Source of the DNA: Candidatus Poribacteria bacterium
GTDB taxonomy: Bacteria > Poribacteria > WGA-4E > WGA-3G
Assembly: GCA_009845505.1 (NCBI GenBank)
Contig: VXZL01000449.1
Coordinates: 1-10,227, forward strand
Length of the DNA stretch: 10,227 nucleotides
Direction: 5' to 3'
Position 1 is the first letter of the stretch. Every line of letters starts with the position of its first letter. The translations under genes and the position numbers were made by a program. The notes beneath the pieces are model-generated. The model was not told the DNA's origin. It saw only the letters and a list, made by a program, of their open reading frames with translations, and made no database searches. Below, in pieces: positions 3,381 through 8,429 of this stretch.

Positions 3381-4409
3381 ATGTCAAAAGCCCCGAAATC
3401 TCTTGAACCTTCTGATATCCTGATAGAACATTTCCCCGACCGAAGTATCAGACGGTTGTTCCAGGACCCGGAGTATGTGCGAGGCTTAGTAGAAATCATC
3501 GCGCCTGACCTTGTAGGATTCCTTGATTTCAGCAGAGGTACGCAGCAGAACCGGAGTTTTATCTCCGATGCGTTGCGGGAGCGGGAGTCGGATGTCCTGC
3601 TACGTGTGCCGTTTCAGAGGACGACTGAGAACGAAGAACTCCTTATCTATATTCTGATTGAGCATCAATCGACGGTAGATCCTACGATGGGATTTCGGAT
3701 GTTGTCTTATATGATGGAGATATGGCAAGGGCAGTGGCGGGAGTGGCAGTCGGAGGCTGGGTCGAGACGACGTTTGGATCCGATCTTACCGATAATATTT
3801 TACACAGGGGATCGGCGGTGGACTTCTCCGTTGTCGCTGACGGCAATAATGGAGGTCCCCGAAATCCTGGAGCGATTTGTGCCGACGTTTGACACCCTAT
3901 TTTTAGAAGTAAAAACAGCAGATCGAGAGACTCTAACGAAGCCTGGGCATCCATTAGGGTGGTTGTTAAGTGTTCTTCAAAAAGAGCGTTCGGGGAAATC
4001 AGCACTCAGTGAAGCGTTAGCATCCGCGGTATCGGCGTTAAGTCGGTTGGATGAAGCACAAGTATCGCAAGTGCGTCCAGCACTTCTCTATTTTATCCAA
4101 TTGATTCTGCATCGTCGGTCAGCTGAGGAGCGTGAAGAGTTAATAGAATTGGTCAAACGCCATAGTCAAGATGAAAGTGAGGTAGTAATCATGGCACAAA
4201 CAGCGGCTGAATTCCTTATAGAACAAGGCAAAGCCGAGGGCATCATAGAAGGCAAACAGGCAGCAATCCTACAGCTTCTACGGATCCGATTTCAGAACGT
4301 CCCAGAAACGCTTTCTGATCGGATTACCTCCATCCAAAATCTTTCACACCTTGATACCCTCTTAGAGCGGGTGATGACCGCCCAAAGCCTTGAAGATATT
4401 CAGGGTTGA
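3381..4409 (+). CDS. Rpn/YhgA-like PD-(D/E)XK nuclease (recombination-promoting nuclease, 'putative transposase' family)
   Basis: The 342-residue protein belongs to the Rpn/YhgA-like family (Transposase_31-type), whose E. coli members are DNA endonucleases that raise RecA-independent recombination. Visible features are an N-terminal FPDRSIRRLFQDP segment, the nuclease core with SDVLLRV (D71), YILIEHQS (E94-H-Q96) and FRMLSYMMEIW (from about 105), then LDPILPIIFYTG (132-143). E94-x-Q96 stands where classic PD-(D/E)XK enzymes have E-x-K; the Gln form is usual in this family. The C-terminal part (about 280-342) has QGKAEGIIEGKQ and RIRFQNVPETL, resembling the DUF4351-type tail. No Shine-Dalgarno is evident before the ATG at 3381 (TTAAGCACCT), so translation may be weak or use a near-leaderless mode. 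It has its own promoter and a downstream terminator candidate, so it is probably a single-gene unit. No terminal repeats flank it, and it is not a mobile element by itself. Confidence 0.88.
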   Translation: MSKAPKSLEPSDILIEHFPDRSIRRLFQDPEYVRGLVEIIAPDLVGFLDFSRGTQQNRSFISDALRERESDVLLRVPFQRTTENEELLIYILIEHQSTVDPTMGFRMLSYMMEIWQGQWREWQSEAGSRRRLDPILPIIFYTGDRRWTSPLSLTAIMEVPEILERFVPTFDTLFLEVKTADRETLTKPGHPLGWLLSVLQKERSGKSALSEALASAVSALSRLDEAQVSQVRPALLYFIQLILHRRSAEEREELIELVKRHSQDESEVVIMAQTAAEFLIEQGKAEGIIEGKQAAILQLLRIRFQNVPETLSDRITSIQNLSHLDTLLERVMTAQSLEDIQG

Positions 4410-5353: not shown

Positions 5354-6853
5354 ATGGCTCACTTTTTTTGTGAAGCAAGCCGGACTTTCAGCGAATATTT
5401 GCTTTTACCCAACTTAACGACGAAGGATTGTATCCCTGAAAATGTTATCCTGAGAACCCCTCTGGTGAAGTTTAAAGTGGGGCAACAACCCTCTCTGGAA
5501 GTAAATATCCCGTTTGCTTCTGCAATCATGCAAGCCGTTTCGGATCACAATCTGGCAATTGCCTTGGCAAGACAGGGTGGGATATCCTTTATTTATGGGT
5601 CCCAAAGTATTGAAGAGCAGGTGGCAATGGTCCGGACGGTTAAAAATCACAAAGCAGGTTTCGTTGTCAGCGACTCAAATTTAAAGTGTGATAGTACTAT
5701 AGAAGATGTCGTGAAACTTACTGAAGAAACAGGGCACTCGACGATTGCTATAACCCACGATGGCTCGTCTTCAGGTGAACTCCTTGGACTTATAACGGAT
5801 AAGGATTATAGATTGAGTCGCGTGGATTTAGAGGCTAACGTAAGCGAATTCATGACGCCGTTTCCCGAACTAATTGTGGGTCAAAAGGGAATTACGATTG
5901 AAGCTGCCAACGACCTCATTTGGAAACACAAGATAAATTGTCTGCCGATTGTTGATGAAAATCGTAAACTGGTACATTTGGTCTTTAGGAAGGATTACGA
6001 TGACCATAAGAAAAACCCGCTTGAATCCGTAGATTTCCAGAAAAGACTTGTTGTTGGTGCCGGAATTAATACCAGAGATTATAAAGAGAGAGTACCAGCA
6101 CTGGTCGCAGCAGGCGTTGATATTATGTGTGTCGATTCTTCTGAAGGGTATACAGAGTGGCAATCAGACACGATCCAATTTATTAAAAATACGTACAATG
6201 GGACTGTGAAAGTGGGTGGCGGAAATGTCGTTCACGGAGATGCATTTACGTATCTGGTAGAAGCCGGTGCTGATTTTATAAAAGTAGGTATCGGTGGAGG
6301 TGCTATTTGTATAACAAGGGAACAGAAAGGAATCGGTCGTGGGCAAGCAACTGCCCTCATTGAAGTCGCTCGGCAAAGGGATCAGTACCTGAAAGAAACC
6401 GGTGTTTACGTGCCAATTTGCTCAGATGGTGGTATATTCCAAGATTATCATATTGGTTTGGCACTTGCGATGGGTGCGGATTTCGTGATGATGGGCAGAT
6501 ACTTTGCGAGGTTCGACGAAAGCCCAAGTAAGATAAGAAAATTGGGTATGAATACAGTGAAAGAATATTGGGGTGAAGGCACAAAGCGAGCCTCTAATTG
6601 GCAACGCTACCACGAGGGCGGCGGTCCAGAATTACTGTTCGAGGAGGGTGCTGATGCTTATGTACCGTATGCAGGAAAGATGAACGATAATTTGAAAACG
6701 ACTCTCGCAAAGATCCTATCGCTTATGTGTAATTGCGGGGCGATATCCCTACCGGAATTCCGTCAAAAAGCGAGATTCGTGTTAGTCTCTTCAGCAAGTA
6801 TTCGCGAAGGCGGTGTTCACGATATTATTCCCAGAACGACGCAGGATGGGTAA
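5354..6853 (+). CDS. guaB: IMP dehydrogenase, Tritrichomonas-like type
   Basis: Catalyses NAD-dependent oxidation of IMP to XMP, the committed step of guanine nucleotide synthesis, in the cytoplasm. It has 499 residues, with a TIM barrel interrupted by a CBS-domain pair (about residues 104-220). Catalytic features are GGAICIT with nucleophile C319 and T321, the NAD-contacting DSS at D261, the IMP phosphate region SDGG (D358) and the mobile flap NWQRY with R418 and Y419. From memory these fall at the same residue numbers as in the Tritrichomonas foetus enzyme. Long blocks also match it: [65 protein letters not shown]. Most bacterial IMPDHs instead have GSGSICITQ and shorter, different flaps. 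The start has an excellent AGGAGG. HAD lies 26 bp upstream and selN starts 1 bp after the stop. The C-terminus ends in TTQDG, with no peptide anchor motif. Confidence 0.95.
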
Positions 6854-6854
6854 C

Positions 6855-8429
6855 ATGAAAACTTTCGACAACAAAATCACACTTAATCTCAACGGTAACG
6901 CAAAAATCAACGTCAAAGCCTTCATCGCGCCGATTGAATATACACAATACAACTTTCATGTAGACTGGGATACATTAGCAAACCTACGCGTCGCTGAACC
7001 AGAAAAACAGTATCCCCACTCAATCTTCTGCGACTTCCTCCCTAAGGAAGCCGTTTCTGTCGGGACACCTTGGGAGATTGAGCACGCTGGTCCTCTGGAA
7101 TTGATGAAGCAACTTCATCCGAGTCCATCTCTGGGTATGCGCTGGGATCTGCATCACCATAAAACCGAATCTCAAGGACTATGGGCATGCCTCCGCGCCC
7201 ACGGCGATGAATTCGCTGACATTGTGTTCCGCATCCACGCGCAATTTGCCCTAAAAGATGGTTGGTTCACGCCTTCCCAGTTTACGGGGCATCTTGTTAT
7301 TGATAGGATTAAAAGATCGGTTGCCTTTTTTCAGATGTCTGTTCCTAACGGGACCGTAAACTTTGACACTTGGTGGAAGAAGGATCCAGACGCGGAGGGG
7401 CATATTACGGATATCGGCTTCTGCCCGCAAATGGAGCTCCATGCTGGAACAGAAGATATCCTGCAAAACGCTAAATTCGCTGAATCCATTAGGCAAGAGG
7501 AAGTGGAGCACCAATTAACGCGCTGCTTCTACAAATCACAGCAAATTAACTGGGTATCGCTCAAAGAAGCGTTGGAGACGGCACCCGCAGAACAGAAACC
7601 GATTCATGCCATCTCAATAGATGGACCGCTCCTTGACGAATCCTGCTGAGGGAGTGGCAAAGGCTTGAGGGCAGGTGTCCTCTCAAAAGACGAAGTTATT
7701 GAATTTTTAAACGAAAATTTTGTCAATACATGGGTACCCAATTGTGAATTAGGACGTATCCAGAGTTTGCGGGAACCGATTGCCAAAAGACGCGAACGCG
7801 AGGGGAAGAGCTTTGACACATCGCACCCGTTAGCACAAGCGATTATTAAAGGCTGGGAAACCGGATCCAAAAAAGGCTCGCCGGTAGATTGCTTGGTTAT
7901 ATCGTCAACGTTTGAACTAATGGGTAGACAAATGGTCAATAATCTCCGCGAAGACAGTGAGCGTGAGGGACTCCCGAAGCATGTGCATTATCTCGCATTT
8001 CTCAAGGAAGCCTTGGGAGGAAAACAGCCCGGGTTAGGCAATATTGTACTAAGCCGTGAGCAGCCATTACAGACAGTGTTGGGCACTTTTCGGATACCAA
8101 CTGTGGGGCATCAGGACTGGACTGTTGTCATGATTGATACCACAGCCCTTGGAAACGGCGGCACGCTCACCATTGACGTTGAAATCGGTAGAGAAGATGG
8201 TGAAGCGGCGTTCTTTCTGCTTGAGGGCGATAAAGAACTTCCCACAGAAGAAACATTACCTAAAGACAAGATTACTTGGGTATGGGGTGAACCCGGGGAC
8301 ACCCGTCAAATTAAGCATCGCTTCAACAAAGGTCAATTATTTAAGTTAGGTGTTATTGGAGCTTGGGTGAGAGACGAACCGTGCATAAACGCCTTTCACG
8401 CAAAAATTTCTGTAGAGGCAGCAGATTGA
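6855..8429 (+). CDS. Selenoprotein N (SELENON/SEPN1) homologue with in-frame TGA selenocysteine
   Basis: One 524-residue reading frame interrupted only by TGA at 7647-7649, read as selenocysteine U265. The centre is D-E-S-C264-U265-G-S-G-K-x-L-R, the S-C-U-G redox motif of animal selenoprotein N, in which Cys and Sec form a thioredoxin-reductase-like selenenylsulfide pair. Homology continues on both sides: FTPSQFTGHL (138-147), a VPN segment (163-165) and DIGFCPQMEL (186-195) before the Sec; FLNENFVNTW (284-293) and YLAFLKEAL (379-387) after it. The ATG at 6855 has AGGA 8 bases upstream inside the end of guaB; an ATG at 6846 is the alternative. Unlike human SELENON there is no signal or membrane segment and no EF-hand, so the protein is probably cytosolic. 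It also has an extra C-terminal domain (about 394-524) rich in predicted strands. A standard caller would report two ORFs (ending 7649 and starting TTG 7665). The main alternative is a nonsense mutation; the SCUG context and the hairpin downstream argue against it. Confidence 0.93.
7647..7649 (+). other. Selenocysteine codon (TGA)
   Basis: In-frame TGA directly after a Cys codon (TGC) and before GGG AGT GGC, giving C-U-G-S-G. The frame stays open for 259 further codons with clear homology to selenoprotein N. TGA also serves as the true stop of several genes here (4407-4409, 8427-8429 and the deacetylase at 8430-8432), so a general reassignment of TGA is not the explanation. Confidence 0.9.
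7665..7686 (+). promoter_or_regulatory. Bacterial SECIS element candidate
   Basis: Stem TTGAG (7665-7669) pairs with CTCAA (7682-7686), then GG (7670-7671) with CC (7679-7680), leaving T7681 bulged and a 7-base loop CAGGTGT (7672-7678). It starts 15 bases after the TGA and its loop begins 22 bases after it, within the range typical of bacterial SECIS hairpins that bind SelB. The loop contains GGU as in the E. coli fdhF element; the bulged U is on the 3' side here rather than the 5' side. It lies inside the coding sequence, as bacterial SECIS elements do. Confidence 0.7.

Follow-up and report, generated by a model that had tools for sequence, protein, structure and literature searches.

A SELENON-like gene with an in-frame TGA, very probably read as selenocysteine, in Candidatus Poribacteria, and its bacterial family

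The stretch of DNA analysed here (the window: 10,227 nucleotides, positions 1 to 10,227 of contig VXZL01000449.1, Candidatus Poribacteria assembly GCA_009845505.1) carries on its forward strand a SelN-like gene preceded by a gene for IMP dehydrogenase (Table 1). The two genes possibly form an operon, and the same arrangement is found in a second genome of the species (G055). The window also contains a gene for a YhgA-like putative transposase (3381-4409). A search of 11 related loci revealed IMP dehydrogenase upstream of SelN in two of them (L138 and L147) and the visible end of such a gene in a third (L140).

Table 1. Positions and supporting evidence for the features of the SelN-like locus (numbering of the window)
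Feature	Position	Strand	Evidence or remark
IMP dehydrogenase gene, upstream neighbour	5354..6853	+	its stop codon and the SelN ATG are separated by 1 base
SelN-like gene, 524-residue product	6855..8429	+	ATG at 6855; TGA stop 8427-8429 included; homologues and vertebrate SELENON match
N-terminal SELENON core region, about residues 17-200, with FRIHAQF, FTPSQFTGH and PQMEL blocks	6903..7454	+	alignment, structure model
Thioredoxin-fold redox domain, about residues 229-390, with Cys264-Sec265	7539..8024	+	
TGC, Cys264, partner in the Cys-Sec pair and proposed resolving residue (role inferred)	7644..7646	+	sequence
In-frame TGA, predicted Sec, residue 265	7647..7649	+	same TGA in same-species genome; TGA in 75/76 related loci
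Proposed bacterial SECIS stem, 7667-7672 with 7677-7682, loop AGGU 7673-7676	7667..7682	+	family-wide test
C-terminal beta-sandwich domain, about residues 396-522	8040..8420	+	alignment, structure model

The first-pass annotation had described this gene as two adjacent ORFs split solely by a TGA, which is borne out: positions 6855-8429 make up 524 codons in one frame, interrupted only by a TGA at codon 265, and reading through it yields DESCUGSGKGLR (residues 261-272). The gene of G055 shows 14 differences in 1575 positions and keeps the identical TGA; since this genome is independent, the codon is no assembly slip. Comparison with seven related genes gave dN/dS values of 0.15-0.40 for residues 1-260, 285-389 and 390-524 (residues 261-284 were excluded, and the near-identical G055 gene shows zero change in the middle part), values that point to purifying selection on either side of the TGA. 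Gene callers split such genes: of the 173 bacterial match proteins listed, 56 stop exactly at the Cys preceding the site; of the rest, 16 extend across it and 101 do not, and some proteins begin just after it. This pattern would also be expected of an ordinary stop between two distinct proteins, of a pseudogene or of an error in the sequence. However, a TGA of this kind agrees poorly with the TGA of the independent same-species genome and of 75 of the 76 related loci (the exception, L098, is without that stretch), with purifying selection on both sides, with two parts that together make up one SELENON core, and with the codon constraint after the TGA (see below), and we regard it as very improbable.

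In single BLASTP comparisons the joined protein matched the bonobo SELENON entry with 125 bits (29% over 344 alignment columns, E=2e-35) and the coelacanth entry with 123 bits (30% over 309 columns, E=3e-34). The vertebrate match covers both sides of the TGA and is colinear through the core, as expected of a member of the SELENON core family. The window protein contains the stretch S-C-U-G-S-G-K-G-L-R and the blocks FTPSQFTGH, DIGFCPQMELH, FLNENFVNTW and FLKEAL, all as first annotated, and the human counterparts that the annotation had given (FSPAQFTGH, DIGYIPQMELE, LLNESFISTW and FLKEGL) were found in the bonobo entry. The human motif is D-Q-S-C-U-G-S-G-R-T-L-R; its flanks are visible in the database entries, which diverge at the Sec position, as is common in gene predictions. 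The window's DESCUGSGKGLR fits the context DxSCUGSGxxLR, its Sec being deduced from the TGA, the codon constraint and the machinery. Common to animal SELENON (SEPN1) and the bacterial protein are the colinear core, the FRIHAxF, QFTG and PQMEL blocks, and Cys-Sec-Gly followed by SG[KR]xLR. In contrast, the bacterial protein is without the EF-hand region or an animal-type N-terminus, has an extra beta sandwich and occurs in many copies per genome. The window protein gave zero Pfam families at E<=10, so no EF-hand match, in a search whose EF-hand control is weak (two vertebrate entries and the close relative P0245 reached best E-values of 0.024, 0.011 and 0.0044, all below the Pfam cut-offs); in the alignment no bacterial segment corresponds to the vertebrate EF-hand stretch, and the last 130 residues of the bacterial proteins are unmatched in the five vertebrate SELENON entries aligned. 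Because the EF-hand N-terminal to the core is missing, we do not file the window protein as an animal-type SELENON; the SelN EF-hand is listed among the parts gained at the base of animals (PMC7016017). Another gene of the same genome, on contig C202, is nearer to animal SELENON than the window copy (34% over 235 alignment columns). Judged by its sequence, the window protein is near certainly a bacterial SELENON-core protein.

The structure model suggests an N-terminal SELENON-specific part, a thioredoxin fold of the DsbH/AGR type with Cys264-Sec265, and a C-terminal beta sandwich. Foldseek searches with this model returned mostly beta-rich matches to the C-terminal domain, the redox domain showing on a second look, with low identity (14-16%) to DsbH/AGR-type structures. 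DsbH, thioredoxin-like DUF255 and AGR-type proteins share the fold only, and the window family differs from them in its vicinal Cys-Sec; for the DsbH/DUF255 family PF03190 the window protein had no Pfam match, and its type-B relative P0175 scored 13.5 bits (cut-off: 27). The joined protein had no match at E<=1 in Pfam, in NCBIfam (searched with three family proteins) or among PDB sequences (queries P0001 and P0175). An adjacent Cys-Sec pair is also present in vertebrate thioredoxin reductase (GCUG), where it lies at the flexible C-terminus of a flavoenzyme, and we claim no homology. The window copy belongs to the Poribacteria clade with the added C-terminal beta domain; this domain is present as a second copy in many paralogues, and the window protein shares the beta sandwich with two ECF sigma proteins encoded in the same genome. 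By eye, the window copy has no signal peptide; one is present in other paralogues.

The first-pass annotation proposed to look for selA, selB, selC and selD in the same genome. The window's genome (G000) encodes a tRNA-Sec (78.1 bits, cut-off: 47; anticodon tca according to ARAGORN), in a search where 5 of 14 control genomes exceeded the cut-off and all 14 gave signal below it. SelA was found with 516 bits, and SelB is encoded beside the tRNA-Sec on the same contig. SelD is the part that did not come out as proposed: no match over cut-off was found in the G000 draft (86% complete), though one is present in G055, and the Sec machinery is complete when this same-species selD is counted. Within the phylum, SelD over cut-off was found in 75 of 84 genomes (G055 included) and SelB in 76 of 84. 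Among the SelD matches listed over cut-off, those of L134-L137 and of other genomes of the phylum contain one in-frame TGA themselves. Paralogues with Gly or Trp at the site (see below) could be taken to mean that a reassigned code or a suppressor tRNA has UGA decoded as one of these residues. Such decoding is nonetheless hard to reconcile with a gene whose own stop is TGA, with one TGA at one place in nearly all matches listed, with the encoded tRNA-Sec, SelA and SelB, with a codon constraint specific to the site, and with animal relatives annotated as selenoprotein N; we give it hardly any credence.

The RNA downstream of the TGA was analysed in 156 distinct Sec sites, picked by motif pattern from the loci examined; a family stem beginning 17 bases downstream of the UGA can form. 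All six of its pairs (loop AGGU, AGUU or ACGU) are possible in 92 of 102 distinct sequences of the Val-type class, compared with a mean of 2.2 (maximum 8; 300 draws) when synonymous codons are drawn at random according to flanking usage, and with a mean of 80.5 (maximum 85; 300 permutations) when they are permuted within columns. In the Pro-type class, 37 of 41 distinct sequences allow all seven pairs (loop GGUC), the random synonymous draws giving a mean of 0.1 (maximum 1) and the column permutation 37.1; since the latter reproduces the pairing, the Pro-type stem is backed by codon choice and not by covariation. At Sec+7, Arg is encoded by AGG or AGA in 153 of the 156 sites, as against 11 of 81 flanking Arg codons. 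With the sites thinned to 77, the mean folding energy relative to synonymous permutation had z from -1.1 to -2.5 from the UGA and from -0.1 to +2.0 further down. The three non-poribacterial sites differ downstream of the TGA; for L119 and L102, two of the three, the predicted fold contains a CCCTC...GAGGG hairpin.

For the window itself, the stretch after the TGA has no extra stability relative to shuffles (z 0.57), and no Rfam match was found in the window at the gathering score. The minimum-energy fold of the whole 48-base stretch is another hairpin (-14.2 kcal/mol, against -8.9 for the family stem), and the family stem has near-zero probability in it; at least four family-stem pairs appear in the 48-base folds of 51 of 102 Val-type and 28 of 41 Pro-type sequences. 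Omitting the first 12 or 15 bases, counted from the TGA, makes the family stem the predicted fold in the window (-8.9 kcal/mol), and omission of the first 12 places it in the predicted fold of 93 of 102 Val-type sequences (the window's included) and 40 of 41 Pro-type ones. A ribosome at the UGA would cover those first bases. A SECIS-type hairpin downstream of the UGA is supported family-wide; in the window and in about half of the Val-type sequences it is the predicted fold only with the first 12 bases left out. We consider a constrained RNA signal after the TGA well supported by the sequences; its exact shape in the window is less sure, because the whole 48-base stretch prefers the rival hairpin. 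The constraint lies directly 3' of the UGA in these bacterial genes, in contrast to the eukaryotic rule of a SECIS in the 3' UTR (PMC12013277).

Both halves of the original proposal, core-wide homology to SELENON and a TGA decoded as Sec, are well supported by the alignment, the machinery, the codon constraint and the motif distribution (see below). The window protein is very probably a selenoprotein, and we hold its SELENON-family identity together with Sec decoding with high confidence.

The finding is larger than the first annotation saw, for the window gene has many bacterial relatives, which make up a large family. Of the phylum's 84 genomes, 64 carry a strict DNA motif of the Sec site (381 sites in total, up to 15 per genome), and its reversed pattern, used as a control, occurs in 0 of 84; the strict motif requires AGR at Sec+7 and therefore misses sites like those of Planctomycetota. 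Motif-positive genomes are confined to three of ten families (f1-f3), and SelB is present in six of the seven motif-free families (all but f5). A query piece from the type-B copy of the same genome matched in 64 of 84 genomes, with TGA in 144 of 150 among the matches listed. A scan of contigs of named genomes, which kept the best 80 of 177 relatives (76 loci), so that other phyla may be missed, yielded 73 loci from Poribacteria, two from Planctomycetota MAGs (L097 and L119) and one from an uncultured bacterium (L102); the in-frame UGA is kept across these homologues, as expected of a bacterial selenoprotein. Viral contigs contained no relative. SelN arrays with five or six Sec sites per locus of about 13 kb were seen in L108, L123, L122 and L127, with six sites in 13 kb in L108 and L123. 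One protein, P0107, consists of the C-terminal half of one SelN and the N-terminal half of a second, ending in DDESC, so that a double-Sec fusion is possible. The type-B copy of the window's own genome (L022:1609-2792, minus strand, contig C202) has the TGA, with a frameshift upstream of it in the draft, and its counterpart in the same-species genome (L027) is in one frame.

The protein searches over candidate lists covered the best 120 of 263, 71 of 71 and the best 120 of 375 matches. The 16 site-spanning proteins listed have Cys-Gly (12), Cys-Thr, Cys-Trp, Ser-Gly and Gly-Trp (one each) at the position of the pair, and a Cys form at the Sec site was found in none of them. The first-pass annotation had held that close homologues with a residue other than Sec or Cys here would refute it, and taken literally all 16 are such homologues, but we read them as derived. 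The Gly paralogue of the window's own genome (L021:1553-3406, contig C636) has GGA in place of TGA and downstream stem bases that can still pair, which suggests a recent single-base loss of Sec. As the paralogues with Gly, Thr or Trp at this position make clear, the domain is able to persist when Sec is lost.

Several relatives are fused to other domains. Four loci (L083:5056-7140, L084, L087 and L088; Pfam was run on two) encode in one frame an ECF sigma factor, a hydrophobic helix and a SelN domain with the predicted Sec, and this fusion is, from its sequence, a candidate selenocysteine-containing transcription factor. In L066-L078 the SelN domain is followed by a C-terminal thioredoxin-like domain, identified by Pfam as AhpC-TSA/Redoxin in the two examined (L066 and L072).

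The explanation that we favour overall, with considerable confidence, is that of a bacterial selenoprotein belonging to the SELENON core family and working as a thiol reductase. SelB and Sec-tRNA would read the TGA at 7647 as selenocysteine, a step strongly supported by sequence, guided by an RNA element after the TGA that is probably the stem 7667-7682. The Sec selenolate would then attack disulfide or oxidised-thiol groups of a partner, Cys264 resolving the intermediate, a thiol reductase role that has also been proposed for animal SELENON. Partner or site is probably chosen by the beta domain, and the cytoplasm is the probable site of action of the window copy, given the signal peptide missing by eye. 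Taken by itself, the reductase role seems to us moderately probable. The same family and the same Sec decoding could instead serve mainly a redox sensor or a binding protein, as might be expected from the ECF sigma factors fused to SelN domains in four loci (Pfam on two), from the beta sandwich shared with two ECF sigma proteins that the genome also encodes and from the paralogues that persist without Sec. However, a thioredoxin fold with neighbouring Cys and Sec is usually a sign of thiol chemistry, the fusions to C-terminal AhpC-TSA/Redoxin-type domains fit electron transfer, and the window copy is without a sigma domain, so that we consider a mainly sensory or binding function rather unlikely and retain the thiol reductase for the window protein. 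In the ECF sigma fusions, with their hydrophobic helix, the SelN domain may sense the redox state outside the cytoplasm, a role that we put forward tentatively.

Two trees (66 and 38 rows, samples of hand-chosen rows and random ones from a thinned set) were calculated; both are unrooted and drawn at the midpoint, with vertebrates as the only animals, and in the first the two long branches (animals and type A) meet. Vertebrates form one clade (support 100/100 in both), type-B/C Poribacteria together with Planctomycetota and L102 a second (96/78 and 94/88), and the type-A proteins, including the window's, a third (100/100 and 100/99). The window row is absent from the thinned set of the first tree and present in the second; the nearest row to the window protein in that second tree is L123 (81%).

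Poribacteria are known from sponges, and the bacterial genes could therefore be animal SELENON acquired by symbionts from a sponge host, by a very old transfer from animals, or be contamination. The confinement of the motif to three of ten families of the phylum agrees with such an origin, as does the SelN reported in a sponge (PMC3473315). On the other hand, copies lie on single-contig genomes and beside bacterial neighbour genes, the constraint beside the TGA is of the bacterial type, and there are several deep bacterial clades, one of them of Planctomycetota, with vertebrates (the sole animals in these unrooted trees) as one clade outside; taken as a whole, origin from animals is improbable in our judgement, although a very old transfer from animals may have taken place. 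We speculate, with a good deal of doubt, that SELENON was instead a bacterial invention: an exported Se-dependent thiol reductase of Poribacteria/Planctomycetota may have reached an animal ancestor by gene transfer and gained the EF-hand there, the same Sec domain may, in Poribacteria, have come to serve a membrane-tethered ECF sigma factor as its outer sensor, and the Sec arrays may serve redox exchange with the sponge host.

An inventory of prokaryotic selenoproteins from May 2026, with 119 families/subfamilies by its authors' count (PMC13188914), has no SELENON row in its table, some rows of which are unnamed hypothetical proteins; several of these hypothetical families carry NCBIfam numbers, and three SelN-family proteins matched nothing in NCBIfam at E<=1. 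The known prokaryotic selenoproteins of that inventory resemble the window protein in bacterial Sec decoding and, many of them, in a thioredoxin-like fold. Sec-containing SelO is described in bacteria, with SelN unmentioned in the available part of the source (PMC12013277). We found no literature that pairs Poribacteria with selenoproteins and no earlier report of a bacterial SELENON; subscription papers and bioRxiv were outside the search, so that a prior report is possible.

Mutations in SELENON cause a group of human muscle diseases (PMC12839072). The bacterial genes add a family to the prokaryotic selenoproteome that is unusual in its gene multiplication, arrays and sigma-factor fusion. 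A bacterial relative without membrane anchor or EF-hand is a simpler protein for structure determination and enzymology, and its comparison with animal SELENON separates the core (the redox domain and N-terminal part) from the animal addition (the EF-hand). The family also makes the origin of SELENON testable, and if our speculation on the outer sensor is true, the ECF sigma fusion would be a selenocysteine-containing transcription factor.
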